The notes under the pieces: generated by a model
Database searches by the model: none
Told to the model about the DNA's origin: nothing
The model's input: only the letters and a program-made list of their open reading frames with translations
In this document: positions 8,272 to 62,197 of the stretch, in pieces
Position numbering within the stretch: position 1 is the stretch's first letter
Layout of the letters: each line of letters begins with the position of its first letter
DNA from: Craspedostauros australis
Lineage: Eukaryota > Bacillariophyta > Bacillariophyceae > Mastogloiales > Achnanthaceae
Length of the DNA: 64,000 nt
Reading direction: 5' to 3'
NCBI GenBank assembly: GCA_026770025.1
Contig: JAMXDE010000035.1
Location: forward strand, 310,001-374,000
Position numbers and translations under genes: made by a program

Positions 8272-8630
8272 TGTTGGCAAGTTCCGCTCACGGTAACCTA
8301 CGATCGTGGAAGATGGTGTTGGTTGATAGTCGTCTGTTTGCTATTTCATTATGTTGGCACTCCGATACTCTCGGTGTCCGTTCGTTCTCTTGCCCGATGC
8401 TCTCGGCGCTTCAATCTGTTTCGCAGATTCGGTCTCCGACTATGAGTCGGTACGCGAGATCCTCTCTCGCTCCTCTCTGTATTCTCTCTCTCTCTCACCA
8501 TCGTGTGCTCGTGCTACACGATGCTTCGTGTTCGATGCGTACTCCGCATTCGACACTCTGTTCATTCAGTACTGGTTTCTACTCCATGAGTACTTACCAT
8601 TTGAAGTTCACCTTCAGTATCCATGATCTT
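8272..8630 (-). repeat. 5' LTR of element A, first part (interrupted by B)
   Basis: Matches 1,224-1,582 of the 3' LTR apart from a few transitions and a 2-bp microsatellite difference, then stops at ATCTT where element B begins. The LTR resumes at 18,111. Confidence 0.85.
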
Positions 8631-17480: not shown

Positions 17481-17562
17481 CGGAGACACAAATTGTGAAC
17501 TGTTGATCGAACGATGGAGGTTTTTACACCGGGGACATGCTTCGCACTACGCCGAGAGGGAG

Positions 17563-18105
17563 AGTTGGGACAGACTAGCTCCGGGACTGACCCGGGACTT
17601 GACTGTCCATCCCGCGTACACGGTATTCGGTACCCAAGACCGATACTGTGATGAAAGGCTACCGCACACACGATGTGTAGTTGAACTGCAATCCTTGCGT
17701 TGCTCGCCCTCCAGCTCATGCACCCCTGCCACCTGTCCACCTCGTCACCCTACCGAATATGCATCTGTCTTGAAGCATATCTATGTGAATGGATCAGCCA
17801 CTGCTCTACGGGTGATGACACTGGAAAGCTGTATGTGTGCAGGATCACCACGGCATGCTGCTGCGCAACAAAGAACGGCTGAAGTACGACAGCACGAACC
17901 CCACCTTTTTACTCGATCGTCCTACCAATAGTAAGCTTAACACATAAAACAAGCAATCAGAAACTATCTTACCAGCTTACTTCCAAGTCTACTACAGTTA
18001 CATCATCGTCTGATACAGCTTTGTTCTCAACATCAAACGGCGTCAAAACCGGTTGAAGGACAAACCATCCTCCTGACAACGTGCAGAAGACACGGAATAC
18101 TAACT
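17563..18105 (+). repeat. 3' LTR of element B
   Basis: 543 bp, same as the 5' copy. It begins 82 bp after the pol stop codon. Confidence 0.9.
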
Positions 18106-24100: not shown

Positions 24101-26567
24101 GGCGCGTGTTGGATCCTACAAACACCTGTACCATGGTACATCCACCGTGTCCGGGGACTCCATCATGATGAGCAGGCGTGTCAGAGAACAACGTGTCCAT
24201 GGAAACAACATCGTGTAGTCGACTGACATTGGCTGCGGGGAATCTAGACTTATAGTGCTTACGCATGGGATAACGCTCAGACATGCGGTACCACTGGGTA
24301 GTACATGCAAGAGTGTCACGCACGCGGTCTGCTGGAATCCACCCGAAGTACGGCCGTAGCGCATGGAAGTTGGGCGCTTTACCCACGATGTTGCGTGGCC
24401 CAGCCTTGATTGCCTTCTCCCCATCCCCGATCGTTGCAGCGGATTGAGCGTACTGAACGCACTTGGAGATGGTGATGTCGATGTCGTCGTCTTCGCCGCG
24501 TTCGGTCGCGGGGATGTTGTCCAGATCAGCCTCCCCGTCCAGGACAGATGGGTCCCACTCTTGGTCGGAGGTGAAGAACACGTGTGGCAGATCGTCTAGC
24601 TCTGCTTGAGTTGGCTTGTGCATGTCCATGTATGCGAGGCCTTGACGCACGGTGAGCGGGATGATGAATCCGTCTGGCGTGACGATGGTTTGCCGACCGC
24701 CAGGGAGGTTCTTGGGTCTCTCGTTGACATCCAATCCAAACGCCGCGAGTTGGTTGGCAGAATGGATGGTGCGCCCTTTCCCGTAGTTGGCGTACTGATG
24801 GAACCAACCGATCACCGGCCCTGAGGTGGTCTGGATGACAGCGGTGGCCGTGACCAGCGCCAGATCCTTGATCTCTGCGTCGCCGATTCCAGAAACATCA
24901 GCACGGTTGGATGTGGACTCCATCACCAGCATGTCATCTCCAACGAGACCGCCGTTCGCACCTCCATCCACTAATGCGCCTTGCACAGTCACGTTTGTGT
25001 TGTTGAACTTGTACGATACGTTCGTGTGTGACAAGGTGTAGGTGCGACCATCAATGACGAGGGTAGTCGGCGGGCCCCCGGACGCGCTAGACATGGCATT
25101 GGAAAGCATACGGTTGATTGCTGTTCCGGCGGTAGAACTAGACTCATTATTGTTACTACCGTTGTCGCTGGCCTGGGTGTCCTGTTGGTCGTTCTGGTTG
25201 GATGTGGATCCACTGCGGTTGGTGTTGTTGGCGGAACGCCTAGGCTTGTCCTTCTTACCACGTCCAGACTTGGCTCGCCGGGCTTGGAGGAAGTCGCTGC
25301 GTTGCTTATCCGACAGCTTCTGGAACTCCTCACGTGGCAGCCGTTCTCGTGTCTCCTTGCTGTAGTCCTTGTTGGGCTTCCAGAGATTGGGTCCGTCGTC
25401 CTTATCCTTCCCGCGTTGCTTGCGCTGGTCGGTGTTGTTGGCCTGGCGCGGCGGCTTGGGCTTGTTGGCGTCGTGGCCATCGAGTTGAACAGCGTACGAC
25501 CGAACGAGCTCCACGAGGGTGTCGAACTCCATGGTGGTTGCGGACTTGCTGGGTGAGTAGGCCAGGATAGCGGTCTGCAGGTAGTCAGTCTGGAAGATAG
25601 ACTGGTACAGAGCCTTGTCTGCCTCGATGGCGTTGGTCAACCACTCCTTCTTCGTTGCGTCGTCGATTGGATCATCACGCAAAGCCTCAAGTTCGTGAAC
25701 CTTGTGTTGCCACAGGTCCAGGAACTGCTCACGCGTCTTGCGCCACTGCTTATCCAGCTTGAACTTGATGATGTCGTCGCGGATGCGTCGGATGGTGTTG
25801 ACAGCAGTAGCACCGGTGGTGTACTCGCGAACCAGCATGCAGTAGACGGCTTGGCCGTCACAGATCGACTCGTATGGAGTGACACACTTCCTACTCTTCG
25901 TGGTCTGCAGGTTGGATACAAACACGTTGAACAGGAAGGTGGACTGCACTTTGAAGAGCTCGGCTTGTTCATCAGACGGGACGTAGTCAGTATCGAGAAC
26001 ATTGGAGATGCCATGAGCAGCAGCGGTGGCACGCAGACGACGATGGAACGTAGCGAAGTACTTGTCATCAGACAACTTTGGGTAGTCGCTAATGTTACGC
26101 TTGATGCTACGGTTGAAATCTGCGGCGAGGTCGCGTCCAGTCTTCTCCGTTGGTTCGGTCTTCGTTGGTTCGAAGGGGAATGCGCTGGTGGTTCCATCGG
26201 GCATGGCAGCTGAGGATGCGGGCGAGGGTGTGAACGTCCGGGCGAGATACTCCATGTACGAAGCTTGGTTGAGTTCCCGCCATGTCTCTGCAGTGGGATT
26301 AGGTTGAACACTGAACCAGCCAATGGCATTTATGAATTTCCGGATTGCTACCTTAGACAGTTGGGCTACGTAGTCGGATCCTGGATCAGGCACCTGGATG
26401 GTGACGTCCATATCGAGCATGTCTTCGCGATGGAGCGAAGCGAAATCCATGATGGTTTGGATCTCTTCGTTGTGCAAGATAAGCCATTCATTGGATGAGT
26501 CGTCATATCCGAGAACGCTGAGGACGTGCGCCAGGATGGGGTCGTTGATTGGGATTGCGTTGGACAT
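21108..26567 (-). CDS. Gag-pol polyprotein of copia element F
   Basis: A single 1,819-residue frame. Residues 1-500 are Gag-like, mostly helical and ending in a Lys/Arg/Asn/Gln-rich stretch. No CCHC knuckle is visible. A protease follows near residue 526 with VDGGANGG, so the usual D-S/T-G reads D-G-G. The integrase core has Asp near 787 (SMDTLFSD), Asp near 854 (SDNAT) and Glu near 889 (NPVERR). RT has YVDD near 1,459 and is preceded by the MMIIVKALYGLRTSG stretch typical of this clade. RNase H starts near 1,662 (VDANLMHC). There is no stop or frameshift, and one frame for both parts means no recoding is needed. The closest described relatives are probably diatom CoDi-type elements, from memory of the family style and not from a search. 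Confidence 0.9.
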   Translation of the reverse strand: MSNAIPINDPILAHVLSVLGYDDSSNEWLILHNEEIQTIMDFASLHREDMLDMDVTIQVPDPGSDYVAQLSKVAIRKFINAIGWFSVQPNPTAETWRELNQASYMEYLARTFTPSPASSAAMPDGTTSAFPFEPTKTEPTEKTGRDLAADFNRSIKRNISDYPKLSDDKYFATFHRRLRATAAAHGISNVLDTDYVPSDEQAELFKVQSTFLFNVFVSNLQTTKSRKCVTPYESICDGQAVYCMLVREYTTGATAVNTIRRIRDDIIKFKLDKQWRKTREQFLDLWQHKVHELEALRDDPIDDATKKEWLTNAIEADKALYQSIFQTDYLQTAILAYSPSKSATTMEFDTLVELVRSYAVQLDGHDANKPKPPRQANNTDQRKQRGKDKDDGPNLWKPNKDYSKETRERLPREEFQKLSDKQRSDFLQARRAKSGRGKKDKPRRSANNTNRSGSTSNQNDQQDTQASDNGSNNNESSSTAGTAINRMLSNAMSSASGGPPTTLVIDGRTYTLSHTNVSYKFNNTNVTVQGALVDGGANGGLVGDDMLVMESTSNRADVSGIGDAEIKDLALVTATAVIQTTSGPVIGWFHQYANYGKGRTIHSANQLAAFGLDVNERPKNLPGGRQTIVTPDGFIIPLTVRQGLAYMDMHKPTQAELDDLPHVFFTSDQEWDPSVLDGEADLDNIPATERGEDDDIDITISKCVQYAQSAATIGDGEKAIKAGPRNIVGKAPNFHALRPYFGWIPADRVRDTLACTTQWYRMSERYPMRKHYKSRFPAANVSRLHDVVSMDTLFSDTPAHHDGVPGHGGCTMVQVFVGSNTRLTAAYPLASESHVPRVVQDFIREHGAMDVLMSDNATAQIGGKMKDILRQYCIADHQSEPHHQHQNPVERRIQDIKRTTNGIMDRTGTPARFWLICTLYVVGLLNHLSQSTAGHITPIQAATGQRPDVSKYLSFHWWEPVYYKVGNAAFPGTTQERRGRWAGPCEHKGDELTFWVLDDATQRLLPRSSIRRVSDDARNLRADYPLPASGEDGNVDDEASENGNPDDFDSDSTPKPRRPVVHALSDLVATSHGESDSGVVKVPKFSPDELLGLTFLHQQDGLKWRARVIRRIKDGDAANHDNIKMLIAYGDDDTEELIAYTDLADIIEQQHEQEIGDGEMCVFKAITGHEGPFHSSHSKYNGSSYNVKVQWEDGSVTMEPLDVIAKDDPVSCAKYAADNNLLGLPGWKRFRKLAKRKKKLNRLINAGKRKTRAQGPIFKFGVQVPRNGKEARQLDEKNGNSKWVDAERKEMDQLHEYGTFKDLGKNARKPDGYKQIKLLWVYDVKHDLRHKARCVAGGHLTDPCKDMAYAGVVNLRSFRIALLAAELNNLKPMVGDIGNAYLEAYTKEKICFVAGPEFQEFAGHMMIIVKALYGLRTSGARFHESLADTLRDMKFFQCKADPDVWMRDAGRCWEYICVYVDDLMAVMEDPQLFFDTLINKYKYKLKGVGPIKYHLGADFDRDKDGTLTMSPQSYIKRMLANYEQVHGELPRTYTSPMEHNDAPELDTSRELNPVETRQFQSLIGALQWCITLGRFDIAAAVMTLSRFRAQPRIGHMDRAKRVYGYLRKRSDAAIRFRTGIPDHERFFKVPDHEWMYSVYGDAGEETADDDPAPKGKAVRMTTFVDANLMHCKVTGKSATGVLHLLNQTPIEWFSKRQTTVETATYGSEFVAARQATEQVIAMRLTLRAMGIPLDGPAWMFGDNQSVITSSTIPNSVLSKRHNALAYHRVRAAVAAKILHFCKIDGTENVADVMTKFLPWAKYWPLVRPLLFWKGETLGG

Positions 26568-33131: not shown

Positions 33132-36100
33132 ATGATCAGCTTTCCCTCCAAGGCAGCCATCGCGGTGACTATCTTCGTCCTCTTCGCCTCCTTTGCGACA
33201 ACCGAAGCCAAACTGGGCGAAGGAAAGCGTTTCCAGGCCACGGATCAAACGGAGTCGTATGACACGATGCAAGGCACTCGTGCACTCAAGACGGCAGTCT
33301 TCGGCAATTCCAATCCCACTCCAGGCGGTGGTGGTGGAAAGACTTCAAAGACGACCATCCCGCCGATCGTCATCGCCAAGACATCCAAGACTGCCATCTT
33401 CAACCCGCCTCCTTTGCCCACGGCCATGCCGACCCAAATGCCCACACACATGCCTACCGGCGCTCCTACCCACACCGCGTCATCTTCTCCGACCTCCCCG
33501 CCGACCTCCAACCCATCCGCCGCTCCGTTCGACTTCGATTCGTTGATCTTCGTCATGTGCAGACCGGACGGCGCCACCGTCCTCACTCCCGATGAAAGCC
33601 GCATCAAGCTCATCATGTGTGACGCCACCAAGGAATCATGCCGCACAGCCGTGACCGCCGTCAGGAGATCCGCCGACCTGCAAAACTACTTCGCATGTGC
33701 AGGCAACGTGGGAGAAGGAGCGGCACGCAAACTCTTCAACAGATTCGCCATGAACACAGAGCTCGCTGACCAACTCACGCTGATGGCCGATATTGGAACA
33801 GCCCTCATCACAGAACGGCCAGATCAAATCAAGGAAGCGTGCAGGACGATCGGGATGACGCAGACACCACCCATCGCCGATGCATGCTGCCAAGGAACAT
33901 CAGGATGCACCTTGGCCGCTCCTCCCTCCCCTTCCTCTCCATCACAGCCATTCATTACCGTGGCTCTCACTGCATGCACCGGCGACAACGCATGCAAGGA
34001 CATGGGACCCAATCCCCTCATCCTTGAGTCTTCGTGCACTGGTGTGAGTGCTTGCGAGTCCATGAACCAGAACGATCCCGATCCCGTCATCACAGGAGTC
34101 ACCTTCGTTGGTGAAGTAGCGTGCACCAGCTCACGTTCTTGCGAAGGAGTGGGATATCGCTCATACGGAGATGTGGTCGTCCAGAACGGCGCATGCTTGG
34201 GATCGAACGCGTGCAACTCTGCAGGCCGCCGCACAGCACAAGGACATTCCCCCATTCGCATCCAAAGTCACATCAACATCGGATCGAATGCCTGTGTCGG
34301 TGGCAATGCCTGCAAGAACGCTCACTCGACCATCAACCGTGTTTTCGGAGGAAAGAACAGAGGGAGCCTGATCATCGGCGATGGTGCGTGCGCCCGTCGT
34401 GGATCATGCGAGGGGCTGGGCTTCAGCGACACGATGAGGACGGACATCGTCATCCCTTCCGATGGATGTCCGAACGTCGACAGCTGCGTTGGATGCATGA
34501 CGCAGTCGGAATGCAACTTCGATGCGGTGTATCTCATCTCGGATGCGGGTGGAGCGTGTCCAAAGAGAAGCGACGGCAGTCCAACGGGCGAGAGGGTGGA
34601 TGAGTTCTGCGTGGGCAAAGCCACGCTTCCAACAGACTGTCCCACGTTCTCTCCAACTCCGTTCCCCACACCTCTTGCATCATCCAATCCAAGCCAGGTT
34701 CCGTCAGAGGTCCCGTCTCAGGGTCCCAGCTCAATTCCCTCCGAGGATCCCTCTCAGGCTCCGTCGAGCCTCCCGTCTGCAATGCCTTCCAGTCTGCCAT
34801 CGGATCTACCATCGGAATCACCTTCAGATATTCCATCTGAGATTCCGTCCGATCTTCCGTCTGAGGTTCCGTCCGAAATGCCGTCAGATCTACCATCAGG
34901 CTTGCCGTCTAGTGGACCATCAAGCCTCCCGTCTGAGATACCATCAGATTTACCGTCCGACCTGCCATCTGAGATGCCGTCGGACCTACCATCAAGTGTT
35001 CCGTCCGATCTTCCATCAAGTCTTCCTTCCGAGCTGCCGTCCGATCTACCATCAGATCTCCCATCGAGTCAGCCTTCGGATATGCCTTCCGAGCTGCCAT
35101 CAGACATTCCGTCAGGATTACCGTCCGAGTTGCCGTCAGATCTGCCATCGGACCTGCCTTCGGACTTACCGTCAGATCTACCATCAGATCTTCCATCGAG
35201 CCAGCCTTCGGGTATGCCATCTGAGCTCCCATCATATGTACCGTCAGATCTACCATCAGACCTTCCGTCAGGATTGCCGTCCGAGCTGCCGTCGGAGCTG
35301 CCGTCAGACCTGCCTTCGGATTTACCGTCTGATCTGCCGTCCGAGCTTCCATCCGATTTACCATCAGATCTTCCATCGAGTCAGCCTTCGGGTATGCCAT
35401 CTGAGCTCCCATCAGATCTACCGTCCGAGCTTCCATCAGACCTTCCGTCAGGATTGCCGTCGGATCTGCCGTCAGATCTACCATCGGACCTTCCGTCAGA
35501 TCTGCCGTCTGATCTGCCATCTGAGCTTCCGTCCGAGCTGCCGTCCGATCTACCATCAAACCCCCCGTCTGAGATACCGTCAGACCAACCGTCCGATCTG
35601 CCATCCGAGATCCCGTCGGACCTACCATCAAGTCTTCCTTCCGAGCTGCCGTCCGATCTACCATCAGATCTTCCGTCGAGTCAGCCTTCGGGTATGCCAT
35701 CAGATCTTCCGTCAGGATTGCCGTCTGAGACGCCGTCCGATCTGCCTTCGGGCTTACCGTCAGATCTACCATCAAGCTTGCCGTCGGGTCTGCCCTCGGA
35801 CCTGCCCTCGGACCTGCCATCTGATCTACCATCAGGTCTCCCATCTCGGATGCCGTCGGAAGTTCCATCAGATTTACCGTCAGACCAACCATCTGGTCTG
35901 CCGTCCCATCTGCCGTCCAGTTTACCATCATTCCTACCATCCATGACGCCGTCAGATCTGCCATCCGATTTTCCATCCATATCACCGTCCGGTATTCCTT
36001 CTCAACTTCCATCCGATACCCCATCTGGTCTACCGTCTGTTTCCAGCATTCCGTCCGATATGCCATCATCAATGCCAACGCGGATATTTATGTTGAAGGT

Positions 36101-36560
36101 CGGATGTCTTTCAACGCCCGGAGATGTCGATTCAACATTCAATGAAGTTCCAGGAATGGTCACTTGTGGCGCTTCTGAAGGTGTGTGTGCAGATTTTGTC
36201 ACTGCAGTTGAGGCCTTGGACCCCAAACAGAGTCTATTGATCAGGAGCATCATTGGGTGCAATGGTGCTTCACCTCCTGGAGCCAATACACCCGCTGTTG
36301 CTCAGTCTTTCTTCACAGGCGGCGTTTCCACCCATCAAGTCTTGACCCGGGCTCTATTCTCGGCTCTCGCCAGAAACCGCTTGCTGTTCGCAGGCAGCGC
36401 AAGCGAGGTAAGGGCGGCTTGCAATGGGAGATGCTGCGTCGGGATCGATTCTTGTGTCACCAATCCACCGAATAGTATTCTTTTCGTGGGCGAAGGGGCA
36501 TGCATTGGGGACAATGTTTGCCCAATCGTGCCCCCAAGGACATATTTCCCGGCGCGGTAA
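33132..36560 (+). CDS. Secreted Cys-rich protein with a very long Pro-Ser-x-x repeat spacer
   Basis: 1,142 residues. Residues 1-26 are a clear signal peptide (hydrophobic AAIAVTIFVLFASFA, cleavage near TTEA). Residues 136-254 form a helical-looking domain ending CCQGTSGCT. Residues 275-470 hold six or seven short units with a Cys-x5-Cys pattern (ACTGDNAC, SCTGVSAC, ACTSSRSC, ACLGSNAC, ACVGGNAC), spaced 25-35 residues apart and suggestive of a disulfide-pinned solenoid. Residues 502-985 are about 120 copies of PSxx, mostly PSDL, PSEL and PSGL. Residues 990-1,115 repeat the first domain, again ending CC..GIDSC. The second solenoid is missing: the frame ends just after GACIGDNVC. Probably extracellular or wall-associated. 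Function unknown. Confidence 0.85.
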   Translation: MISFPSKAAIAVTIFVLFASFATTEAKLGEGKRFQATDQTESYDTMQGTRALKTAVFGNSNPTPGGGGGKTSKTTIPPIVIAKTSKTAIFNPPPLPTAMPTQMPTHMPTGAPTHTASSSPTSPPTSNPSAAPFDFDSLIFVMCRPDGATVLTPDESRIKLIMCDATKESCRTAVTAVRRSADLQNYFACAGNVGEGAARKLFNRFAMNTELADQLTLMADIGTALITERPDQIKEACRTIGMTQTPPIADACCQGTSGCTLAAPPSPSSPSQPFITVALTACTGDNACKDMGPNPLILESSCTGVSACESMNQNDPDPVITGVTFVGEVACTSSRSCEGVGYRSYGDVVVQNGACLGSNACNSAGRRTAQGHSPIRIQSHINIGSNACVGGNACKNAHSTINRVFGGKNRGSLIIGDGACARRGSCEGLGFSDTMRTDIVIPSDGCPNVDSCVGCMTQSECNFDAVYLISDAGGACPKRSDGSPTGERVDEFCVGKATLPTDCPTFSPTPFPTPLASSNPSQVPSEVPSQGPSSIPSEDPSQAPSSLPSAMPSSLPSDLPSESPSDIPSEIPSDLPSEVPSEMPSDLPSGLPSSGPSSLPSEIPSDLPSDLPSEMPSDLPSSVPSDLPSSLPSELPSDLPSDLPSSQPSDMPSELPSDIPSGLPSELPSDLPSDLPSDLPSDLPSDLPSSQPSGMPSELPSYVPSDLPSDLPSGLPSELPSELPSDLPSDLPSDLPSELPSDLPSDLPSSQPSGMPSELPSDLPSELPSDLPSGLPSDLPSDLPSDLPSDLPSDLPSELPSELPSDLPSNPPSEIPSDQPSDLPSEIPSDLPSSLPSELPSDLPSDLPSSQPSGMPSDLPSGLPSETPSDLPSGLPSDLPSSLPSGLPSDLPSDLPSDLPSGLPSRMPSEVPSDLPSDQPSGLPSHLPSSLPSFLPSMTPSDLPSDFPSISPSGIPSQLPSDTPSGLPSVSSIPSDMPSSMPTRIFMLKVGCLSTPGDVDSTFNEVPGMVTCGASEGVCADFVTAVEALDPKQSLLIRSIIGCNGASPPGANTPAVAQSFFTGGVSTHQVLTRALFSALARNRLLFAGSASEVRAACNGRCCVGIDSCVTNPPNSILFVGEGACIGDNVCPIVPPRTYFPAR
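34640..36080 (+). repeat. 12-bp coding minisatellite encoding PSxx
   Basis: Degenerate repeats of the form ccg-tcn-gat-ctn, about 120 units. Higher-order copies are visible, for instance the block around the word cagccttcgggtatgcc at about 35,195, 35,384 and 35,684. The repeat keeps all frames open over long stretches. Confidence 0.85.
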
Positions 36561-37957: not shown

Positions 37958-40900
37958 TTAGAGGTTTTTACAGGCATCTGCGTTTGGACCAGGGCAGTCT
38001 GCAGCCGCTTCGCTGATGACATATGTGAGCGCAGCGTTCCCACCGCACATAACTTCCCGCACACAGGCGTTGCAACTCTCTGGTTTGCTGGCGACGCAAG
38101 CTCCCTCCTCGATGACAAGGTCGTTGATTGCGTTTTGATTGGCCGCAACGCTTTTGCAAACGTTGTCGCCATCACAAGCATCCTTCTCGATTCGTACGCT
38201 TGCGGAGGGCTTTCCCGTTTCTCCTCGAATAGCCGAATGGATTTCGGAACAGCTGGATTGGCCTTTGCATGCATTCTCTCCAACGAAGATATTGGTCACT
38301 CTTGGTGGTTGTGGGATACTGAATGAGCGGCCTCCCATACTGACACAGGACAATTGTCCATCGCACGCTCCTGTCTCGACTCTCACATTACCAAGCATGT
38401 TTCTGCCGACATTTTGGCAACTTAATCTACCAAGACAGGCTCCCGGTCCGACTACCCTGAATCCAACCTCAGTAGTGGGGCTCGGGAGGGTTCCAGTGAC
38501 CGCGCCAAGCAAATTGCATGCATCATTGGTATCGCAGCTTTCAAGGATGATGGTGCCGGGAAATAGGTCGAAGCAGGCTCGGTCACCGTCACAGGACGCG
38601 TCACTCACCGTCAGCACACCGGCAGAAGGCGACGTTGTGCAACCAATGGTGCCTGTGCAGCAGTTGCTACCGCACGCTGCTGTCACAGCCGCACCTGAAC
38701 CCGAATAGAGCTTCTTCGTCCCCTCCACTGCTGTCAACAGCGCCGTGGTCACGCTGGCTTCGTTCTTGACCTCGTTGAATCGTTTCTGGGCGACTGCCAG
38801 CTCCACGGCCTGTGGAGTTGTTGCATCATCATCGCATCCGAAGATGCTCTTTATCATCTTCCCCTTGTCACCGAGAGCATCGACAGCCGCCACAAAATCT
38901 GCACATGTGTCGGTTCCGCTATCGCAGAAGACTGCACCGGCAGTGATCAGGTTGAAGGCCGATCCTGTGTTTCCTGGACCTTCCAAACATCCAACTGTAA
39001 AAAAGGCAGGGGGCAGGGTTGGGCTGCTTGTTCTTGTAGGTTCTTGTGAAGGCCCTGAGCTCGGAAGATTGGAGGGAGCCTGTGAGACCGAAGGAGACGC
39101 GCTTGGGATATCTGACGGCATCTCCGACGGAAGATTGGACGGAAGATCGGACGGCGACGAGCTCGGGATATCTGACGGCATCTCCGACGGGGGTGTAGAC
39201 GGAAGATCGGACGGCATCTCAGATGGTGCATCTGACGGAGCGCGCGAGGGGCTCTCCGACGGCATGTCAGAGGGCAGACTTGACGGCATCTCGGACGGAA
39301 GATCTGACGGAAGACGGGATGGCATCTCGGACGGGAGATCGGACGGAGATGAGCTTGGAATGCGTGACGGCATCTCAGAGGGCAGAGTTGACGGAATATC
39401 AGACGGTTGATCTGACGGAGTTTGCGAAGGGCTGTCGGACGGAGACGAGCTCGGAATATCTGAGGGTATCTCGGATGGAAGGCCGGACGGAAAGTCGGAC
39501 GGCATTCCTGACGGAGGCAGCGACGGATTATCGGACGGCGATGAACTCGGAATATCTGACGGCATCTGGGACGGAAGGCCGGACGGAAGACTAGACGGGG
39601 CTTGTGAGGGTGTCTGAGATGGCCGATCTGATGGTAGAGCCGTTGGCAAAGCAGATATCAAGTTGGTTGGGCTGTTGGTCGGTCTTGAGGTGAGGGGTGT
39701 GGGGAAAGGAGTCGGAAAGAATGTCGGGCACTCCGTGGGCAAGGTGCCCTTGCCAACACAGAACTCCTCCACCGTGTCTCCTGTTGGATTGTTGTTGCTG
39801 TCGCTACCTCCAACTGGACAGGCTCCAGCGGTGTTACTGATCAGGTACGCCTCGTCGGGGCCGCATTCCGTCTTCGTCATGCATCCTCTGCAGCTGTCGA
39901 CGCTGCCGCATCCATCAGGACGGACAACGATGTCGGTCCTCATCCTGTCATTGAAACCCATCTTTTCGCAGGAACGATCAGCGACGCAGCCTCCATCACC
40001 GATCGTCAAGCTCCCTGCAACCTTGCCACCAGCCCCATGGTTCACTGTCGAATGCGCGTCCTTGCAGGCATTGCTGCCGACACAAGCGTTCAAGCCAATG
40101 TCGATGTGACTGCGGAAGCGAAAGGATGATCCGGACTGTTTGACGCGGCGTCCAGCTGCGTTGCATGCGTCTGGACCAATGCACGCGCCAGTCTGGATGG
40201 TGACGTCACCATGGGATCGACGTCCCACGCCCTCGCAAGATCGTGCGGTGGTGCACGCCATCTCACCAACGAAGGTAACTCCCGTAATGAAGGGGTTGAT
40301 CTCGTTCTCGTTGACCAACTCGCATGCACTCTCGCCGGTGCAGGAGGAATCGAGGATGAGAGGATTGGGCCCCATATCCTTGCATGCGCTGTCACCGGTG
40401 CATGCCGTGATGGCGACGGTCATGAATGGAGGAGGAGCGGACGCAGAAGCGGTGACTGCGGTGCATCCTGATGACCCTTGGCAGCATGGATTGGCGACAG
40501 GAGGGGACTGTGCCATGGCCATGGCCATGCAGGCCTCTTGCATAGCATCCGGTCGTTCCGTGACGAGGGCCACGCCCACATCCGCCACCAACGTGAGTTG
40601 CGCAGCGAGTCTGTCATCGGATGCGTACATGTGGAATAGCTTGCGCGCGGCTGCTTCGCCAAGGTCTCCTGCGCATCCGAAGAAGTTCTGCAGCTGCTCG
40701 GATTCTTGGACGGCGGTCACTGCCTCGCGGCACGATGGTTTGTCCGCATTGCAGATGATGGTCTTCACGCGTGCTTCATCTAGCGTGAGGGTGGTGGTGC
40801 CATCTGGTTGGCAAACGACTTCGATGGTGGCATCGAAAGAAGCTGGATTGGCTGCTGGCGGCGAAACTGGCGAAGGCGTTGGCTGTCCCGTCATGGGCGA

Positions 40901-41182
40901 GAAGCGCGTGGGGCTGGCGGTCGGCGGCCCAGTCGGTAGTGCGGTCGGAGCAGAGGTCTCCAGAGCAGTCGGATTGGCCGATGGTGGCACGGGGTTGCTC
41001 TTGTTGACCTTGGTGTTTTTCCTATCACCGTCGTCGCCCTTGAGGATGCGGGTCTTCTTCATCATGATGTGAAGTTCTTTGGTTGGATCCACGATGTTCC
41101 TGGTGGCACGCAGCTCGGCGTCGGCCGTTGCCATGTTGGCGACGACGAGTACAGCCATGAGAGCTGTCTTGGTGATGAGCAT
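37958..41182 (-). CDS. Secreted Cys-rich PSxx protein, paralogue in inverted orientation
   Basis: 1,074 residues from the ATG at 41,182. That start is chosen over an in-frame ATG 59 codons upstream because MLITKTALMAVLVVANMATA then forms a signal peptide at the very N-terminus. Layout: first helical domain (about 40,830-40,480) ending CCQGSSGCT; Cys-x5-Cys solenoid 1 (40,440-39,800); PSxx spacer of about 245 residues (39,740-39,005), less uniform than in the neighbour; second helical domain (38,995-38,640) ending CCTGTIGCT; solenoid 2 (38,630-37,970). It therefore keeps the full duplicated plan that the neighbour has partly lost. The N-terminal halves of the two proteins are closely similar (ACTGDNACKDMGPNPLIL versus ACTGDSACKDMGPNPLIL). 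Function unknown; extracellular by the signal peptide. Confidence 0.85.
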   Translation of the reverse strand: MLITKTALMAVLVVANMATADAELRATRNIVDPTKELHIMMKKTRILKGDDGDRKNTKVNKSNPVPPSANPTALETSAPTALPTGPPTASPTRFSPMTGQPTPSPVSPPAANPASFDATIEVVCQPDGTTTLTLDEARVKTIICNADKPSCREAVTAVQESEQLQNFFGCAGDLGEAAARKLFHMYASDDRLAAQLTLVADVGVALVTERPDAMQEACMAMAMAQSPPVANPCCQGSSGCTAVTASASAPPPFMTVAITACTGDSACKDMGPNPLILDSSCTGESACELVNENEINPFITGVTFVGEMACTTARSCEGVGRRSHGDVTIQTGACIGPDACNAAGRRVKQSGSSFRFRSHIDIGLNACVGSNACKDAHSTVNHGAGGKVAGSLTIGDGGCVADRSCEKMGFNDRMRTDIVVRPDGCGSVDSCRGCMTKTECGPDEAYLISNTAGACPVGGSDSNNNPTGDTVEEFCVGKGTLPTECPTFFPTPFPTPLTSRPTNSPTNLISALPTALPSDRPSQTPSQAPSSLPSGLPSQMPSDIPSSSPSDNPSLPPSGMPSDFPSGLPSEIPSDIPSSSPSDSPSQTPSDQPSDIPSTLPSEMPSRIPSSSPSDLPSEMPSRLPSDLPSEMPSSLPSDMPSESPSRAPSDAPSEMPSDLPSTPPSEMPSDIPSSSPSDLPSNLPSEMPSDIPSASPSVSQAPSNLPSSGPSQEPTRTSSPTLPPAFFTVGCLEGPGNTGSAFNLITAGAVFCDSGTDTCADFVAAVDALGDKGKMIKSIFGCDDDATTPQAVELAVAQKRFNEVKNEASVTTALLTAVEGTKKLYSGSGAAVTAACGSNCCTGTIGCTTSPSAGVLTVSDASCDGDRACFDLFPGTIILESCDTNDACNLLGAVTGTLPSPTTEVGFRVVGPGACLGRLSCQNVGRNMLGNVRVETGACDGQLSCVSMGGRSFSIPQPPRVTNIFVGENACKGQSSCSEIHSAIRGETGKPSASVRIEKDACDGDNVCKSVAANQNAINDLVIEEGACVASKPESCNACVREVMCGGNAALTYVISEAAADCPGPNADACKNL

Positions 41183-42325
41183 GTTTGCAATTGTGTTGAA
41201 TAATGCGATAGGTGGTGACGATTCTGCGATCTTGTCGAAGTGAATGAATGCTTTTGCAATGCTCTGCCAATGATGAAACGCTTCCGCTCGCTCGTGTGGA
41301 GCATGACAAGTAGATGGGCGATGGTACTCAGTAGGGGCGTATCGGCTGTCACTCTTCACTTTCGTCTCGGTCGAGTATGTTGCGTGAGTCCATCTTGTGA
41401 TGCTGGACTGCTATGGCTCGACAGAAGCGCACACAAAGCACAGAGCGGAATAACTCAACGCACGACCGATGAAGGAAAGAGCATTCACAGTGTGTTTGCT
41501 TCGCGGGAACGGCGGTGGAGAATTGTGAAGGCCGATTGGTTGTGAGTGTCACGGAACGCAATGAAATAGGCCAGTGGCGAATCTTGGATCCTCTTTGCAA
41601 TGAATGAATGACCGCGCTTAGCAACCTACAGTGACATTTTGTGCAGCCCCAAAGTGACAAACAAGCACCAGACGAAGGCTCCCAAAGTGTGATCTCGGAT
41701 GAACGTCATTTTTTCTTCATCCATTCGTGCTTCATCAACTTGCAACAACAATTCCGAGACACGAACTTGGAGGTGCGGCAATATATATACATTTGTATAA
41801 ATTGAAACGGAACATCTGGCATTCTGACTCACCTGATTGAATCCCTGATTGGCCGAATGCTTGACGTCACCAACGCACATCGTTCTGGATTCGGCGCTCA
41901 TTGGCTGTTCTGTTGACACGGACGCACTTCCAGAACAGAGCGGGAGGATCTGCAACGAGCGGCGGACCAATACCAATACTCTATTTGTGTTTGTGTGTAC
42001 GCACCCACACAACGGAGACTGAGAGAATTGAAGAGAGACCACATCCTCTGCTTTGTGATCTGCTCATCCACGACAGACGTCACGTTGAGAGAGAGGCGAA
42101 GGCAGAGAGAAGACAGCAACACAATAGGTCGTACTGGCATAGTAATAGAGTACATTCTCATATTGCGATAGCACGAGAGGGGCAGTCATTGTTGGTGTCA
42201 ACAGAATTGGCATTGCGCTTGACTTCGTCTCATTCATCTCCCATTGTGCACGCTGCTGATCCGTGCAATACAGCCACCAACACAAGGCGGAGAGGATTGC
42301 CCCACCGTGCGTCCGCAGCAACAGG
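41183..42325. other. Divergent intergenic region with CRE-like site
   Basis: 1.14 kb between two outward-facing starts. Contains TGACGTCA at 41,862-41,869, a gattggc-type CCAAT box (about 41,848) and an attggct (about 41,901), and an AT-rich tatatatac at about 41,782. No reading frame is convincing. Confidence 0.45.
41862..41869. promoter_or_regulatory. TGACGTCA palindrome in the divergent promoter
   Basis: Exact CRE-like word, about 460 bp upstream of the plastid-protein start and 680 bp upstream of the PSxx gene start. Confidence 0.4.
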
Positions 42326-49271: not shown

Positions 49272-49979
49272 CTACTCGATCTCGACCGTCCCACCCACGG
49301 CCTCGAGCTTCGCCTTCAATTCCTCTGCCTTCTCCATGGGCAGATCTTTTTGCAACGTCTTGGGCGCGCCTTCGACGAGCTCCTTGGCTTCCTTCAAACC
49401 CAATCCAGACATGGCACGCACTTCCTTGATGACCTTTATTTTGGACTTGGCATCGAAGCCGGTGAGCTTGACATCGAACTTGGTCTTTTCTTCGACGACC
49501 TCCTCGACAGGCGCCGCTGCACCACCGCCGCCACCACCGCCACCGCCGATGCTGGACGCCAGCAGACTCTCATCAAATCCGAAATGCGTCGATATTTTTT
49601 CCGTCAATTCCCGGATTTCCAGCAGGTTGAGATGCACGACCTCATGCGCCAGCTGATGGATATGTTCGGGTGCCATGACCTTGTTGGGATCGCCGCTCGT
49701 ATTGAGAGGTGGCAGCGGGATGATGGGCATCTCCTCGCCGTCCTCGAAATCTTCCTCAAACATCTTTTCGAGTTCGGGATTGTTGTGATGCAGAGGATTC
49801 TGGTAGACCGGCACAACATCATCGTCGTCCTTCTTGAGGGTTGCAGTGGAATGGATGGACCGCGTGCCGCGTCGTGCGGCTAGCCTGGATGCTGCGAAGG
49901 TGGCAAATCGAGGAGCGCTGGTAACAAGCTGACGTCTCATCGCCAGCGACAAGCATGTTCGTCGAACTGTGTTTATCAT
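49272..49979 (-). CDS. Mitochondrial ribosomal protein bL12 (L7/L12), copy 1
   Basis: 235 residues from the ATG at 49,979. The reading frame is open for 80 codons upstream, but [17 protein letters not shown] begins an Arg/Ser/Ala-rich, acid-free presequence typical of mitochondrial import, without the Phe junction of plastid proteins. The N-terminal dimerisation region ([20 protein letters not shown]) is followed by a poly-Gly/Ala hinge of 10-15 residues. The C-terminal domain reads [20 protein letters not shown], then [16 protein letters not shown], with the Lys cluster that contacts translation factors. bL12 forms the ribosome stalk that recruits elongation factors. Two further copies lie downstream. 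Confidence 0.85.
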
Positions 49980-50757
49980 GATGGATGGATGGATGGATGT
50001 GGAATATGATGGAATGTGATGAGAGTGGAGAATATGTTCGTGACTCGCAGTCGTGATCAAATGATCCACCGTATTTGTGTTGGCGCTTGAGGTCTGAGTG
50101 TTGGCAACGCTGTTTCGGTTGTCTTCGTTGTCGCTGTTGCCCTTCTTCCTTCCTTTCACGATGATACACAAACTGGTTGAGTTGCGAGTGCTGTCGTTGA
50201 CAGTGATGTCCACAGGCAAGTATTGGTATTAGATTGTGCGCCACAGTGCGTCTCTGTGTCGGAGCGAAGAGAGTGAAGTGATGTGCGCAAGTTGATGTGG
50301 TTGATGTGGTTGATGTGGATTTTGTGTTGGAATGTGGGCGAAATCGATGGCTCGTTTCTTGACCGTGGAATGGCGGCGTCCGTCCGTATGTACGTGTTCT
50401 GGCCAAACGCAACAGCGATCCATCACATCATCGCCATGATCAACACTCTGTTGGCATCATCATCCTACCATCATCGTCTCATAGTCGCATCATAGTCGCA
50501 TCATAGTCGTCGCTGCCATCTCCAGGCAACAGCTCGAGTGCAATTCATCATCCCCAGCGATCATCGACTGTTCACTTCTATTGGTAGAATACCACACACA
50601 ACTCCACAGTTGCCACTAATTCGCGATAGAAATCTCCTTTGCGACATAGAATATTATACTGACTGCAACAACACGTGTTGTCGTGGACAAACCAACATTC
50701 CCTCCGCAATCGACCGTGCTCCATTCCATTCCACGCTATTGGTGCACGTGGTGTATC
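49980..50757. other. Divergent promoter region between two bL12 genes
   Basis: Contains three short tandem repeats: tggatggatggatgga (about 49,983), gttgatgtg x3 (about 50,292-50,318) and atcatagtcgc-type x3 (about 50,477-50,507). An E-box-like acacgtgt lies at about 50,671. Confidence 0.5.
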
Positions 50758-51462
50758 ATGAGTCCATCTATCCTGCGAGCATCCTCAAACTTGGGCAAAC
50801 GAAGCCTCCGCAACCTGATCCATAGACATGCTGCAGCATCTCTGTCTGCCTCAGTGCAGCGCAACGACGTTCCTTCTTCGACACAGAATCGATCCATCGC
50901 AACAACAACAATGTCCAGCAGATCTTCTGCATCCGCATTGCTGCGCAACAATGCATGCATGACGATTTCACGGCGAAGTCTTTCCGACGAAGCCGCTTCC
51001 AAGGAGAGCACCAATGATGATGAGGAGGAACCGATAGTGCAATACGCCTTCACCCCACCAACACCTCTGTCGCAGGCATCGCATCAAAAGATCGAAGACC
51101 TGTTCCAACGCATCCTGTGGCTCGATTTCATCGAACTGCACTTGCTGACGCAACTCATTCATGAAGCGATGGGTGTCGATCCCGCTCGATTCGCGGGCGG
51201 TGGCGGCAGTGCCACCGTCGCGGTGGCCAAAGAGACGACAGAGGAAGATACACGCAAGGAGGTCAAGCTCGTGGGTTTCGATGCCAAGGCCAAGATCAAG
51301 GTCATCAAGGAAGTGCGCGCCATCACGGGATTGGGATTGAAGGATGCCAAGGCCATGGTGGATGGCGTGCCCAAGACGGTGCAGAAGGATATGGCACCCG
51401 ATCAGGCGGAAGAACTCAAGGCGCAATTGGAAGCGGTCGGTGCGGTGGTTGAGATTGTGTGA
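50758..51462 (+). CDS. Mitochondrial ribosomal protein bL12, copy 2
   Basis: 234 residues from the ATG at 50,758. An in-frame ATG 25 codons earlier would add a Pro/Trp/Cys stretch unlike a presequence. The N-terminal 90 residues are rich in Ser, Arg and Asn with few acids (mitochondrial presequence style). The N-terminal domain has DLFQRILWLDFIELHLLTQL, a GGGG hinge, then [34 protein letters not shown] and a terminal EIV. Compared with copy 1 the C-terminal domain is nearly the same and the N-terminal half has diverged strongly. Confidence 0.85.
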   Translation: MSPSILRASSNLGKRSLRNLIHRHAAASLSASVQRNDVPSSTQNRSIATTTMSSRSSASALLRNNACMTISRRSLSDEAASKESTNDDEEEPIVQYAFTPPTPLSQASHQKIEDLFQRILWLDFIELHLLTQLIHEAMGVDPARFAGGGGSATVAVAKETTEEDTRKEVKLVGFDAKAKIKVIKEVRAITGLGLKDAKAMVDGVPKTVQKDMAPDQAEELKAQLEAVGAVVEIV

Positions 51463-57886: not shown

Positions 57887-60800
57887 ATGCAGACCGTCAC
57901 GGCATCAATCTTCGCGGTGGCTTCAATGCTATCATCCATGTCATCATGGGCGGTGTCCGCTCAGCAATGCTCCCTTCCGTCGAAGCCCATTCCCGTGCGA
58001 CCGCTCAGCATCAGCCAGTCACCATCCATGAGATCGGCCAAGCATTCAGCCACCGTCTACAAGGTGGGCGCGTTTGGCATCCGCGGTGCCCAACAGGCCA
58101 CGGAGGACTTCACAGCCATCTTCCAGGAATACTTCGAGATGTACGTCTCGCCTCAGTTCGCTGACGTCCCGTCCACTTCAATTGGAGATACAAGTGACGA
58201 CAGCAGGAAGATCAGCTTCGAGCTCGTCCCCATCTTCAACAGCGAGGAGGGATTCCTCGACTTCCTGGCGTCCAACGAATTGGACTTCATGCTCATGCAC
58301 ACGGGCGCCCATTCCTGCATGGAAAGCGAGGTCGGCGTGCGCTCCTTGGCAACCGTCACGTCCACAAGCGAACTGCAAGGACAGACGTTCGAGCTCAACC
58401 AGTACGGTGGCGTCCTCTTCACCGCCAAGGACAAGGCAGGCGAGATCCGGGACATCGAGGACGTTCGCGACCGAACGACGGCCTGCGTGGCCCTCGAGGC
58501 CTTCGGAGCAGGGCAGCTCCAGTTCCGAGAGCTCATCATGCGCGACATCCACCACCTCCAGGACGTCGCTCAGGTCGTCTTCATGGAGAAGCAGCCGAAC
58601 GTCGTCAACGCCGTGCTGCAGGGCAAGATCGAGGTGGGATACGTGCGCACAGGTCAGCTGGAGCGCACCATCGACGAGCGCACCGGCAACTTGGTGGATA
58701 TGTCCGAGGTGCACATCTTGGGAGAGTTCGGCACGACCGCCGAGGACGGCACCAGCCCTCCGCTCATCGACGTCAACGGCAACCTCTTCCCGTACCCATC
58801 GTCGACGCACCTCTACCCAGAATGGGGCTTCTCGGCCTTCAGCCACGTCTCCAACGACATCGTGGAGGCGGTGCAAGAGGCCATCCTGCAGATTTCCCAG
58901 CACGCGGCGATCGCCCCGTCCCTGCTGGCGTGCTTTGAACGATCCGCCTGCGATCCGCTTCGCGACACGCACAAGATCAACGCGCTGTCCACACAGCTGA
59001 CATCCTGCCACGAGCAGTGCATGTATGAGCTGCACGACCTTCAGGAGCAGCAACTGGGCTCTGTGCCCTTCCGACGATGCGACACGACCTTGCTCCAAGC
59101 CCTGGCCGCACACTTCGCTCTCACCCAGGCAAACGTAGCAGGTTTCGCGCCAACGGCATCCTACATGGAGATCCACAACATGCAGACGAACCTCGCCTTC
59201 CTCACAAAGGACCACAAGTGCATTCGCACAGAAGGTCTGGCCGACGGTGTCACCTGCCCCGCCGGTCACTTTCCGAAATCCAAGGAAGACATGACACGCG
59301 GTTGCGAGGATGCGAACTTGGACTGTCACGGCTTTTCCTGCCTGTGCAAACCTTGCGTCAAGGCCTCCGACGTCGACTTCTTCCCGGTCCTCACTGACGT
59401 TAGGAAGGATGATGACATCGACCTGGCCCTGGCCGCCAACAATTCCACCATCCGAACTGGATCAGGGTGCGAAAAGTTCGACATATGCGGCTACGTGTCA
59501 CAGAACGACTACATCGTGTACTACGCCATCGACAACCGAAGACGGAACGACGTCGTCCTGTCAGTCGAAGTCCTCGACGGCGACGTTGGCATGAGATACA
59601 CCATGGACCCCGTGCCATCCAGGCCGCATGAATACCAGGTGGTTGTGAAGGACACCAACATCGACACGGGAGAGCACATCGTCTTCGTCCGAGTGGATGA
59701 GGAGCAGGTTCCCGATAGTCCGTTCCGTCTGCAAATCGACGAACGGGACTGCGTCGCCGCCACAGGTGATGCGTACATGATCCCCACCAGCACGGGAAAA
59801 TGCGTGTGCCAAACGACCGTCACCGTCGAGCTGTTCGGAGTCTGCGTCCCCTACTCCATCTTCATCCCGTCCGTTGTACTTCCAACGCTTCTCATGATGG
59901 GAATTGCCGTCCTAGTGTACGTCGAGCACAAACGCAAGGCAGCTGACGCGATCTGGAAGGTCGATCCCAAGGAGCTGATCTACGGCGAACCTCCCCAGGT
60001 GCTGGGACGTGGCACATTCGGCATGGTCCTGCTGGCGGAGTACCGCGGTACCAAGGTGGCCGTGAAACGCGTGCTCCCGGTTGGCAGACATGCTCGCAAC
60101 CTGAATCGTCGTGCCTCGCTGAAGTTCGATTTCGATGACGACAGCCTGGCACTGGCCAAGTTGGAAATGCGCATGAGCGCTTCTTCCAAACAACCGAACG
60201 AGCCGAACCTCGAACTTCAAGATAGCGCAAACTCCACCGATGATGCCTCGGGTGCTGACGATCAGCAGTCGTTGCATTCCCTCGGGAAGGACTCGACGGC
60301 ATCCGCAAAATTTCAAGCCAAGTTGATCCGCCGCAGCTCCGGCGTGTCTTCGGTCTCCTCTTCATCGTCGTCACGCATGGATGGCTCACATTCCAGAACC
60401 AATCGGGGATCAACGGGAGATCTGCTGGCATTATCTTCCATGTCATCTGTGGCTCGTGACCACACACCAAGGCGAAGAACGTCCAAATTCAAGGACATAT
60501 TTGGGTCGCTCGGCAGCGCATCCACGAAGAGGATGGAGCGAGAGTTCATCCAGGAGATGCGGCTCCTCTCCCAGCTCCGACATCCCTGCATCACAACGAC
60601 GATGGGAGCTGTGATTGACAAGTGCAGCGAGCCCATGCTGATTATGGAGCACATGCAGCTGGGGTCGCTGTACGATCTCCTCCACAACGACTCCATGGTG
60701 CTGAACGGAGAAATATTGCTCCCCGTCCTACGAGACGTCGCTCGCGGGTTGCGCTTCCTGCATGCCGCCGCGCCGCAGATCATCCATTCCGATCTGAAGG

Positions 60801-62197
60801 CAGCCAACGTGCTGGTCGATGAGCGTTTCCACGCCAAGGTCTCCGATTTCGGCCTGTCTCGCAAGCGCTACTTCTTCCAGGACAAGGCAGCCGCCGCCGG
60901 AACGCCGTATTGGATGGCGCCGGAACTGCTGCGACGCGAAACCGGCAACACGACGACGTCCGATGTGTACGCATTCGGTGTCGTTCTGTACGAGGTCCTC
61001 ACGCGCAAGGACCCGTACGAAGGCGAATCACTCGATGCGGTGCTTCAGCTGGTCGCCGACGCCAAGATCCAGAAACGCCCGACCGTCCCAAAAGGTCTTT
61101 CCAGCGAATCCGTCCAGCTCATGAAGGCATGCCTGCGCGAGGATCCGACGCTGCGTCCAACAGCGGAAGAAATCAGCGTCCGGCTCGAAATGCTGGATGC
61201 GGACCACATCCGTGTGGCGACCAGCGATCGGAGATTCGGCACAGGGGAGGCTCCCAACGGCAAGAAACGATCCGCGGAAGACCTCCTCTCGCAGCTCTTC
61301 CCGGCACACATCGCAACCGCCTTGCGCGAAGGCCGGAAGGTGGAACCAGAGCAGCACGATTCCGTCACCGTCTACTTTTCCGACATCGTCGACTACACAA
61401 AGATCTCTTCCGGTCTTTCGCCCACCAAGGTTTCCAGCCTGCTGGATCGTCTCTACACCAAATTCGACAACCTTTGCGACATCCACGATGTGTTCAAGGT
61501 GGAGACGGTTGGCGATTCGTACATGACGGTGACGAACATCCACAAGAAGGACCCAGCTCACGTATCAAGGATGGTGGCATTCGCCATGGATGCGGTCGAT
61601 GCTGCTAAAACCACGCTGATTGACGAAGATCAGCCGTCCCGCGGATTCGTCGAAATCCGCAGCGGTTTCAACACGGGTCCAGCAGTTGCTCACGTGGTGG
61701 GAACGCGCAACCCACGCTACTCGATCATCGGTGACACAGTCAACACCGCATCCAGGATGGAGAGCAACTCGCTGCCAGGAAGGATCCAGTGTTCGGAGGT
61801 CACGGCGAGCCTTCTCGAATTGGATTCACCGGAGGGATTCAACATCAAGCGACGAGGCGATTTCAACATCAAGGGGAAGGGAGAGATGACGCTGTTCTGG
61901 GTCGAACGGGAGGGTGCGGAAGACCACGAGGAGGAGGAAGGTGGCGACAATGGCACCGACGGCGACGAACAAGAGGGAAGCGAGACTTCATCGCCACGGA
62001 ACTCCGCGCACGGCTCAAACAAGCGCCACTCAGCAGCTTTGGAAACCATCGTCGAATTGACCGCCGAGGTCATGGATGAGAAGAGTCAGAGGTCGCTGGT
62101 GTCTGGAATGGACTGCGATGACAGCGAGTCGGGTAACTACGCAACGTCCCAGGAACTGTGGGTGGACGGCGTCGAGAAGGGGGACGAAAATGTGTAG
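57887..62197 (+). CDS. Receptor with PhnD-like ectodomain, protein kinase and guanylyl-cyclase-type domains
   Basis: 1,436 residues, no intron. Signal peptide 1-25. Residues about 57-331 resemble a PhnD-type (phosphonate-binding-like) periplasmic solute-binding domain, with TEDFTAIFQEYFE, ELDFMLMHTGAHS and an FGAGQLQFRELIMRD segment where bacterial homologues carry a conserved Ser. A Cys-rich segment (445-501), a filamin-like repeat (about 520-621) and one membrane helix (657-680) follow. Kinase: Gly loop GRGTFG (about 706), VAVK, a Ser-rich insertion of about 155 residues, EM in helix C, HSDLKAANVL (about 966), DFG (about 987) and APE. A linker (LLSQLFPAHIATALREG) of the kind joining kinase and cyclase in animal receptors precedes a class III cyclase (1,155-1,330) with metal-binding Asp in FSDIV and VGDSYM, Glu in KVETVGD and NTASRM. 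Both enzymes look active. Confidence 0.85.
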   Translation: MQTVTASIFAVASMLSSMSSWAVSAQQCSLPSKPIPVRPLSISQSPSMRSAKHSATVYKVGAFGIRGAQQATEDFTAIFQEYFEMYVSPQFADVPSTSIGDTSDDSRKISFELVPIFNSEEGFLDFLASNELDFMLMHTGAHSCMESEVGVRSLATVTSTSELQGQTFELNQYGGVLFTAKDKAGEIRDIEDVRDRTTACVALEAFGAGQLQFRELIMRDIHHLQDVAQVVFMEKQPNVVNAVLQGKIEVGYVRTGQLERTIDERTGNLVDMSEVHILGEFGTTAEDGTSPPLIDVNGNLFPYPSSTHLYPEWGFSAFSHVSNDIVEAVQEAILQISQHAAIAPSLLACFERSACDPLRDTHKINALSTQLTSCHEQCMYELHDLQEQQLGSVPFRRCDTTLLQALAAHFALTQANVAGFAPTASYMEIHNMQTNLAFLTKDHKCIRTEGLADGVTCPAGHFPKSKEDMTRGCEDANLDCHGFSCLCKPCVKASDVDFFPVLTDVRKDDDIDLALAANNSTIRTGSGCEKFDICGYVSQNDYIVYYAIDNRRRNDVVLSVEVLDGDVGMRYTMDPVPSRPHEYQVVVKDTNIDTGEHIVFVRVDEEQVPDSPFRLQIDERDCVAATGDAYMIPTSTGKCVCQTTVTVELFGVCVPYSIFIPSVVLPTLLMMGIAVLVYVEHKRKAADAIWKVDPKELIYGEPPQVLGRGTFGMVLLAEYRGTKVAVKRVLPVGRHARNLNRRASLKFDFDDDSLALAKLEMRMSASSKQPNEPNLELQDSANSTDDASGADDQQSLHSLGKDSTASAKFQAKLIRRSSGVSSVSSSSSSRMDGSHSRTNRGSTGDLLALSSMSSVARDHTPRRRTSKFKDIFGSLGSASTKRMEREFIQEMRLLSQLRHPCITTTMGAVIDKCSEPMLIMEHMQLGSLYDLLHNDSMVLNGEILLPVLRDVARGLRFLHAAAPQIIHSDLKAANVLVDERFHAKVSDFGLSRKRYFFQDKAAAAGTPYWMAPELLRRETGNTTTSDVYAFGVVLYEVLTRKDPYEGESLDAVLQLVADAKIQKRPTVPKGLSSESVQLMKACLREDPTLRPTAEEISVRLEMLDADHIRVATSDRRFGTGEAPNGKKRSAEDLLSQLFPAHIATALREGRKVEPEQHDSVTVYFSDIVDYTKISSGLSPTKVSSLLDRLYTKFDNLCDIHDVFKVETVGDSYMTVTNIHKKDPAHVSRMVAFAMDAVDAAKTTLIDEDQPSRGFVEIRSGFNTGPAVAHVVGTRNPRYSIIGDTVNTASRMESNSLPGRIQCSEVTASLLELDSPEGFNIKRRGDFNIKGKGEMTLFWVEREGAEDHEEEEGGDNGTDGDEQEGSETSSPRNSAHGSNKRHSAALETIVELTAEVMDEKSQRSLVSGMDCDDSESGNYATSQELWVDGVEKGDENV

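Follow-up and report, generated by a model that had tools for sequence, protein, structure and literature searches.

A putative receptor cyclase of Craspedostauros australis with a bacterial sensor-type ectodomain and a kinase that keeps its catalytic residues

The receptor guanylyl cyclases of animals are defined by a kinase-homology domain without the catalytic Asp, and several of them carry an ectodomain of the ANF-receptor kind, which has a type I binding-protein fold. This kinase domain is described as inactive or as a pseudokinase (PMC1592074, PMC4718504). In bacteria tetrathionate is described as the ligand of the sensor TtrS; the work in question also yielded a thiosulfate sensor that has a PhnD-like domain, and for both compounds sensing is there proposed or reported (PMC5408782). 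The binding protein ArrX binds arsenate and phosphate, and the phosphonate-contact roles of E. coli PhnD residues have been described (PMC5908839). For diatoms the partly available literature connects cGMP with the responses to pheromones and to bacterial signals and names guanylate cyclases, and these parts give no ligand for a diatom receptor cyclase. The subject of the present report is a receptor gene of Craspedostauros australis, found in a stretch of 64,000 nucleotides (contig JAMXDE010000035.1, positions 310,001 to 374,000; hereafter the window), in which an ectodomain of the bacterial sensor kind is combined with two effector domains, a protein kinase and a class III cyclase. It is a well-formed receptor gene of the receptor-cyclase kind and a member of a real family; the phosphorus hypothesis that had accompanied its discovery is weakened, and a wider anion or metabolite hypothesis takes its place.

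The gene is a single uninterrupted frame (57887-62197, + strand) that runs from ATG to stop and encodes 1436 amino acids; residue numbers refer to this translation, and the gene is called the window copy where it is set beside its paralogues. The Pfam matches of the protein are above their cut-offs for PF12974 (residues 117-339, 4.2e-16, 59.5 bits against a gathering cut-off of 27), PK_Tyr_Ser-Thr (residues 878-1099, 3.2e-49), and Guanylate_cyc (residues 1152-1340, 1.2e-52), and the membrane helix listed in Table 1 is the sole strong hydrophobic segment in a simple hydropathy window. The original prediction, made from the letters alone, that one open frame joins a binding ectodomain, a membrane helix, a kinase, and a cyclase is therefore borne out.

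As a whole the protein is probably a receptor for an extracellular small molecule, perhaps an anion, that signals through cGMP and phosphorylation. It would be a single-pass surface receptor of a photosynthetic diatom-like silicifier: a small, perhaps anionic molecule would make the extracellular type II binding domain, which is of the signalling-sensor kind, close around it, and the change would pass by way of the Cys-rich neck and the one membrane helix to a dimer of the receptor. Phosphorylation and cGMP would follow when the dimer switches its Ser/Thr (TKL-like) kinase and its guanylate-type cyclase. Within the family one ectodomain type and one kinase type are combined with one of three further modules, namely, a cyclase, a cyclase that is degenerate, or a histidine kinase together with two receivers.

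The motifs named in the original prediction were all located in the kinase, namely, the Gly loop (707), VAVK (724-727), HSDLK (967-971), DFG (987-989), and APE (1011-1013); VAVK and helix C are separated by a Ser-rich insert of about 140 residues. All nine kinase copies preserve VAVK, the helix-C Glu, H-x-D-L-K, DFG, and APE; their tree has no starred branch, and the nearest solved kinase is plant CTR1 (6.2e-43). The window cyclase retains both metal Asp residues, the Asn, and the Arg, and its nearest solved relative is NPR-A (1.7e-45), aligned from the linker helix to the end. Its base-recognition pair is Glu/Ser, with Glu/Gly in the paralogues C5a, C5b, and C25 and Glu/Cys in C6; in guanylyl cyclases Cys, Ser, Thr, His, Ala, or Gly is paired with Glu (PMC4215837).

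A search of the genome (74.8 Mb, 90 contigs) with PF12974 gave eight matches, all accompanying receptor kinases: four genes with kinase and cyclase, three with kinase and degenerate cyclase, and one with kinase, histidine kinase, and two receivers. In a ninth gene, C6, with putative introns, kinase and cyclase stand under a different ectodomain, which brings the related receptor-kinase genes, the window gene included, to at least nine, a fact not visible from the window alone. The four kinase-cyclase receptors (the window copy, C5a, C5b, and C25) occupy single frames. In C15a, C15b, and C1 (L025, L026, L028) the same kinase has its motifs intact, with the catalytic-loop exon between putative introns; in the cyclase the first metal Asp has become Glu or Lys, the Asn and Arg of the transition state are gone, and C1 also lacks the second metal Asp. 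Since the ratio of nonsynonymous to synonymous divergence (dN/dS) of the degenerate cyclase is still 0.15 in the C15a/C15b pair (simple counting method, one pair), this domain has apparently been retained for a role other than normal catalysis. The remaining gene, C10 (L024 1055-7183, + strand, a frame of 2043 codons), encodes PF12974, a Ser/Thr-type kinase, HisKA, HATPase, and two receivers, and its histidine kinase matched at least 5000 plasmid records.

The tandem neighbours C5a and C5b (L021 2500-7458 and L022 1763-6598, both on the - strand) show a sharp break. In the ectodomain up to the CLC-PC motif their protein identity per 60-column block is 39-58%, and past this motif it is 95-100% in 15 of 20 blocks and 88% in the lowest (DNA 91-100%), with synonymous divergence (dS) of 1.37 in the ectodomain and 0.077 in the effector and dN/dS of 0.32 and 0.17, respectively. 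This pattern points either to an ectodomain swapped onto a copied effector or to conversion of the effector, and either route gives different sensors on one output. It is a possible, still tentative scenario that an anion-sensing ectodomain of bacteria was acquired by a diatom lineage and became the basis of a modular chemoreceptor family, with sensor and kinase placed on three outputs and ectodomains exchanged on a fixed effector as in C5a/C5b, much as if receptors were being assembled for a range of compounds coming from bacteria or from the water around the cell.

The bacterial relatives of the ectodomain are mostly signalling proteins. Two diatom ectodomains compared with plasmids by tblastn gave 66 and 57 matching records, many of them near copies, and among the 10 gene contexts examined from these the annotation indicated a sensor histidine kinase in five, a PhnD/SsuA-type protein in four, and an ATP-binding protein in one. 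The four PhnD/SsuA-annotated proteins are 588-1094 amino acids long and have a visible histidine-kinase His motif, and an annotated response regulator adjoins nine of the ten genes. A scan of bacterial and archaeal genomes with a diatom-led profile yielded 45 loci, 44 of which were searched for domains (L059, which holds N, was left out): PF12974 was present in all 44, GGDEF in 9, EAL in 4, and HisKA together with HATPase in 9, and with 19 families matched at E 0.001 no protein kinase or class III cyclase was found in any of these 44. Many of the remaining relatives are lone binding proteins; neighbours were listed for seven such loci and the downstream gene was scanned for five, being a histidine kinase in four. 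The 43 pattern matches in viral contigs included no relative. Two Sulfitobacter sensors with the same ectodomain kind (L042 4872-8156 and L046 4845-8111, both on the + strand) lie beside flagellar motor genes (motA and others), and the source field of the L042 record gives Skeletonema costatum, which is a diatom.

As the diatom-led profile biased the sample to close relatives, PhnD of E. coli and further PF12974 proteins, taken from six of the genomes already sampled, were added. The first ectodomain tree omits nine of the 45 genome loci, which were near copies, incomplete, or contained N; the careful tree, of 64 rows, omits nine further rows, and alignment A6, mixed but mostly bacterial, omits L065, L059, and L091. 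In the 64-row tree the eight PF12974 rows of this genome form one clade (100/100), and this clade lies inside a sensor clade made up mostly of signalling sensors, among them TtrS-like histidine kinases, GGDEF/EAL proteins, and lone proteins, some directly before histidine kinases. The branch separating the sensor clade from transport-type rows has support 100/100 and length 1.03. Profile against profile, the diatom set matched the sensor set at E 2.5e-55, the lone set at 1.2e-46, the plasmid histidine-kinase set at 6.5e-39, and the transport set at 9.9e-12; the diatom profile set against the single E. coli PhnD sequence gave a probability of 0.6%, and profile against profile gave 97.4%. Because the branches neighbouring the diatom clade among the bacterial sensors have bootstrap values of only 30 and 56, no bacterial donor can be named, and since the comparison covered this genome, plasmids, and bacterial and archaeal genomes, acquisition of the ectodomain from bacteria by transfer is no more than likely.

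The predicted structure of residues 27-480 (mean predicted local distance difference test, pLDDT, 76; predicted template modelling score, pTM, 0.73) has a type II binding-protein fold, which together with the Pfam score agrees with the PhnD-like ectodomain proposed originally. In the fold search ArrX was best (E 8e-14), followed by XAC2383, PtxB, AioX, and, lower, PhnD. Solved structures were also searched by sequence: neither the first 704 codons of the receptor nor the diatom profile had a match at E 0.01 or below, and the mixed profile from A6 reached PtxB, ArrX, and PhnD.

The name and score of PF12974, a fold list with ArrX (a binder of phosphate as well as arsenate), PtxB, and PhnD, and the Tyr kept at the PhnD Tyr93 contact position, where the window copy is alone among diatom rows, would suit a true sensor of phosphonate, phosphate, or phosphite. 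The phosphonate clamp of PhnD is, however, gone: Ser127, Ser129, His157, Glu177, and Asp205 are not kept in any of the eight diatom rows. None of the 8 diatom rows and none of the 46 sensor-type rows has the Ser-x-Ser pair (Ser127/Ser129), which 14 of the 19 other PF12974 rows carry; three of the five exceptions lie inside the sensor clade. Position 177 (PhnD numbering) is Asp in seven of the eight diatom rows, all paralogues, and Gly in the window copy. According to the absent clamp residues and the trees, which group the ectodomain with signalling sensors and away from transport PhnD, phosphonate was ruled out as first-choice ligand, and a phosphorus sensor of any of these kinds, as the original prediction proposed, is very improbable. 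Another explanation is that the ectodomain is a relic that binds no small molecule and serves in protein-protein contact or cell-wall sensing, for which the divergence of the window copy, its two insertions of about 13 and 10 residues, and the Cys-rich, filamin-like neck could speak. Against it stand the pocket residues Arg at PhnD N175 (8 of 8 diatom and 43 of 46 bacterial sensor-type rows) and Trp at PhnD D205 (8 of 8 and 46 of 46), as well as the purifying constraint on the ectodomains of paralogues, the window copy not being among them (dN/dS 0.29-0.32), so a relic is rather improbable. In the preferred reading, that of a small-molecule receptor, the bound molecule may be an anion held by the conserved Arg, which is a guess.

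For the intracellular part it can be supposed that the kinase is a pseudokinase or scaffold and the cyclase the sole output, as in animal receptor cyclases, to which cyclase and linker are closest; the absence of Arg from the catalytic loop in every copy also fits. But all nine copies retain the Lys, the helix-C Glu, the catalytic Asp, DFG, and APE, three paralogues preserve the kinase residues though their cyclase lost the first metal Asp, Asn, and Arg, and one paralogue has a histidine kinase instead of a cyclase, and we consider this alternative unlikely, though not negligible. Activity of the kinase is likely, not certain, since the loop reads HSD or HGD.

Several observations weigh against the reading as a small-molecule receptor with two outputs. 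The Arg behind the anion guess is Pro in TtrS and two other plasmid rows. Among the ectodomains the window copy diverges most (an end branch of about 1.0 in the 64-row tree) and is unlike all seven paralogues at 4 of 11 pocket positions (47, 65, 93, and 177, PhnD numbering), and because of both it may bind something else than they do, or nothing. The bacterial sensors are only about 23-36% identical to the diatom ectodomains, no full-length relatives were seen outside this genome, and the ten plasmid proteins were classed by annotation and visible His motif. L073 has no kinase among its scanned neighbours and an MCP gene upstream, immediately downstream of L079 no long frame runs on the same strand, and L061 lay outside the scan. 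In the kinase, HSD (the window copy) or HGD stands in place of HRD in nine of nine copies, and a change from Arg to Gly there occurs in 19 of about 50 human pseudokinases against 8 of about 500 active human kinases (PMC4718504).

The layout of the receptor is collected in Table 1. The Cys-rich module, missed in the first reading, has seven invariant Cys at residues 445-490, ends in CLCKPC, and is conserved in the window copy and seven paralogues, and the Tyr of the preceding Y-x-x-hNM helix aligns with a near-invariant Tyr of bacterial relatives (GFxPPxDY segment). The filamin-like repeat, presented originally as a domain, is only suggestive: PF00630 scored 13.3-16 bits in the window copy and one paralogue against a cut-off of 26.9, with no match in two of three paralogues tried, and it is not taken as an established domain. 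The single-sequence structure model spanning this stretch is poor (mean pLDDT 43) and uninformative for the repeat.

Table 1. Features of the window receptor (positions are those of the window)
Feature	Residues	Position	Strand	Basis
Predicted signal peptide	1-26	57887..57964	+	Hydrophobic stretch then VSA-QQ, judged by eye
Type II binding-protein ectodomain, bacterial signalling-sensor kind	56-350	58052..58936	+	Pfam, trees, profiles, fold
Y-x-x-hNM helix and Cys-rich module	helix from about 426	59162..59356	+	Conserved in paralogues
Filamin-like stretch	559-614	59561..59728	+	Below Pfam cut-off
Single transmembrane helix	658-676	59858..59914	+	Hydropathy; helix in otherwise poor model
TKL-like protein kinase with Ser-rich insert	700-1100	59984..61186	+	Pfam, motifs, nearest solved kinase
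Helical linker RSAEDLLSQLFPAHIA... before cyclase		61268..61339	+	Alignment with NPR-A linker; S-helix, PMC1592074
Class III guanylate-type cyclase	1152-1340	61340..61906	+	Pfam, catalytic residues
Acidic low-complexity tail	1341-1436	61907..62194	+	Sequence

The genome is that of a photosynthetic silicifier, because it gave 88 matches to the silicic-acid transporter (SIT) family, a very large expansion with none in the window, and 61 to the light-harvesting family PF00504; 28 of the 88 cover 501 or more of the 513 profile positions and have no internal stop. A SIT expansion is described for the non-photosynthetic diatom Nitzschia putrida (PMC9054022), and the idea of a non-photosynthetic diatom that arose from it was ruled out by the 61 PF00504 matches. 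Elsewhere in the window two related long secreted-looking proteins with many PSDLPS-type repeats are encoded on opposite strands (33132-36560, +, and 37958-41359, -). Three long regions (2035-8189, -; 9530-17480, +; 21108-26567, -) are what we take to be copia-like retroelements, the middle one flanked by open reading frames (8208-8999 and 16996-17931) that have a repeated stretch in common, and two head-to-head genes (49272-50219, -, and 50683-51462, +) presumably encode L7/L12-like ribosomal proteins.

Kinase-cyclase fusions are reportedly the subject of a 2009 paper by Biswas and others that is cited in reference lists, and for this reason earlier reports of such fusions outside animals are possible. 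Literature searches, whose coverage was without most subscription journals, gave no title or abstract opening naming the present architecture, and it was not met in the available portions of the papers cited here or of PMC7296067, PMC8027222, PMC5485032, PMC5225109, and PMC8396549, which agrees with the original view of it as undescribed. The soluble ectodomain can probably be produced in bacteria and screened, making the ligand question of a diatom receptor cyclase directly testable, and one sensor joined to eukaryotic and two-component outputs offers a useful natural test of receptor-module recombination.

Among known systems, the TOMM system kinase/cyclase fusion TIGR03903 also has a kinase followed by a cyclase; the window protein reaches 67.9 bits against a curated cut-off of 705.75 and is not a member. 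AioX and ArrX are signalling binding proteins as well, for arsenic (PMC5908839), ArrX being the top fold match and AioX close, but they are separate proteins, and the Ser pair and His of AioX are absent from the window receptor. In bacterial PF12974-PAS-GGDEF(-EAL) sensors the same ectodomain kind controls a nucleotide second messenger, through cyclic di-GMP enzymes and without a protein kinase. The TtrS-type sensor histidine kinases share the ectodomain clade and the signatures around x-LE and ST-x-LYP-D/E-W, while their output is a histidine kinase, which the C10 paralogue has too. They differ also in a Cys pair, present in 8 of 10 plasmid histidine-kinase rows including TtrS and absent from most other bacterial sensor rows, where the diatom rows have RTDQ/RTGQ and FPF/FPY, and TtrS itself has Pro at the conserved pocket Arg. 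The animal receptor guanylyl cyclases (NPR-A, GC-C) agree with the window protein in the order of parts, from one membrane helix through kinase fold and helical linker to class III cyclase. Their ectodomain class is another one, the window protein giving no ANF-receptor match in Pfam up to E 1 and PF12974 instead; the original prediction is roughly right in calling the ligand domain unrelated, except that several of the animal ectodomains are type I binding-protein folds, so that a cyclase with an ectodomain of binding-protein fold has precedents. The window kinase, unlike theirs, has the catalytic residues, with Asp D969 of HSDLK in place, and within this one genome the family offers a mirror image of the animal receptor cyclases, in which the kinase motifs are kept and the cyclase is degenerate.

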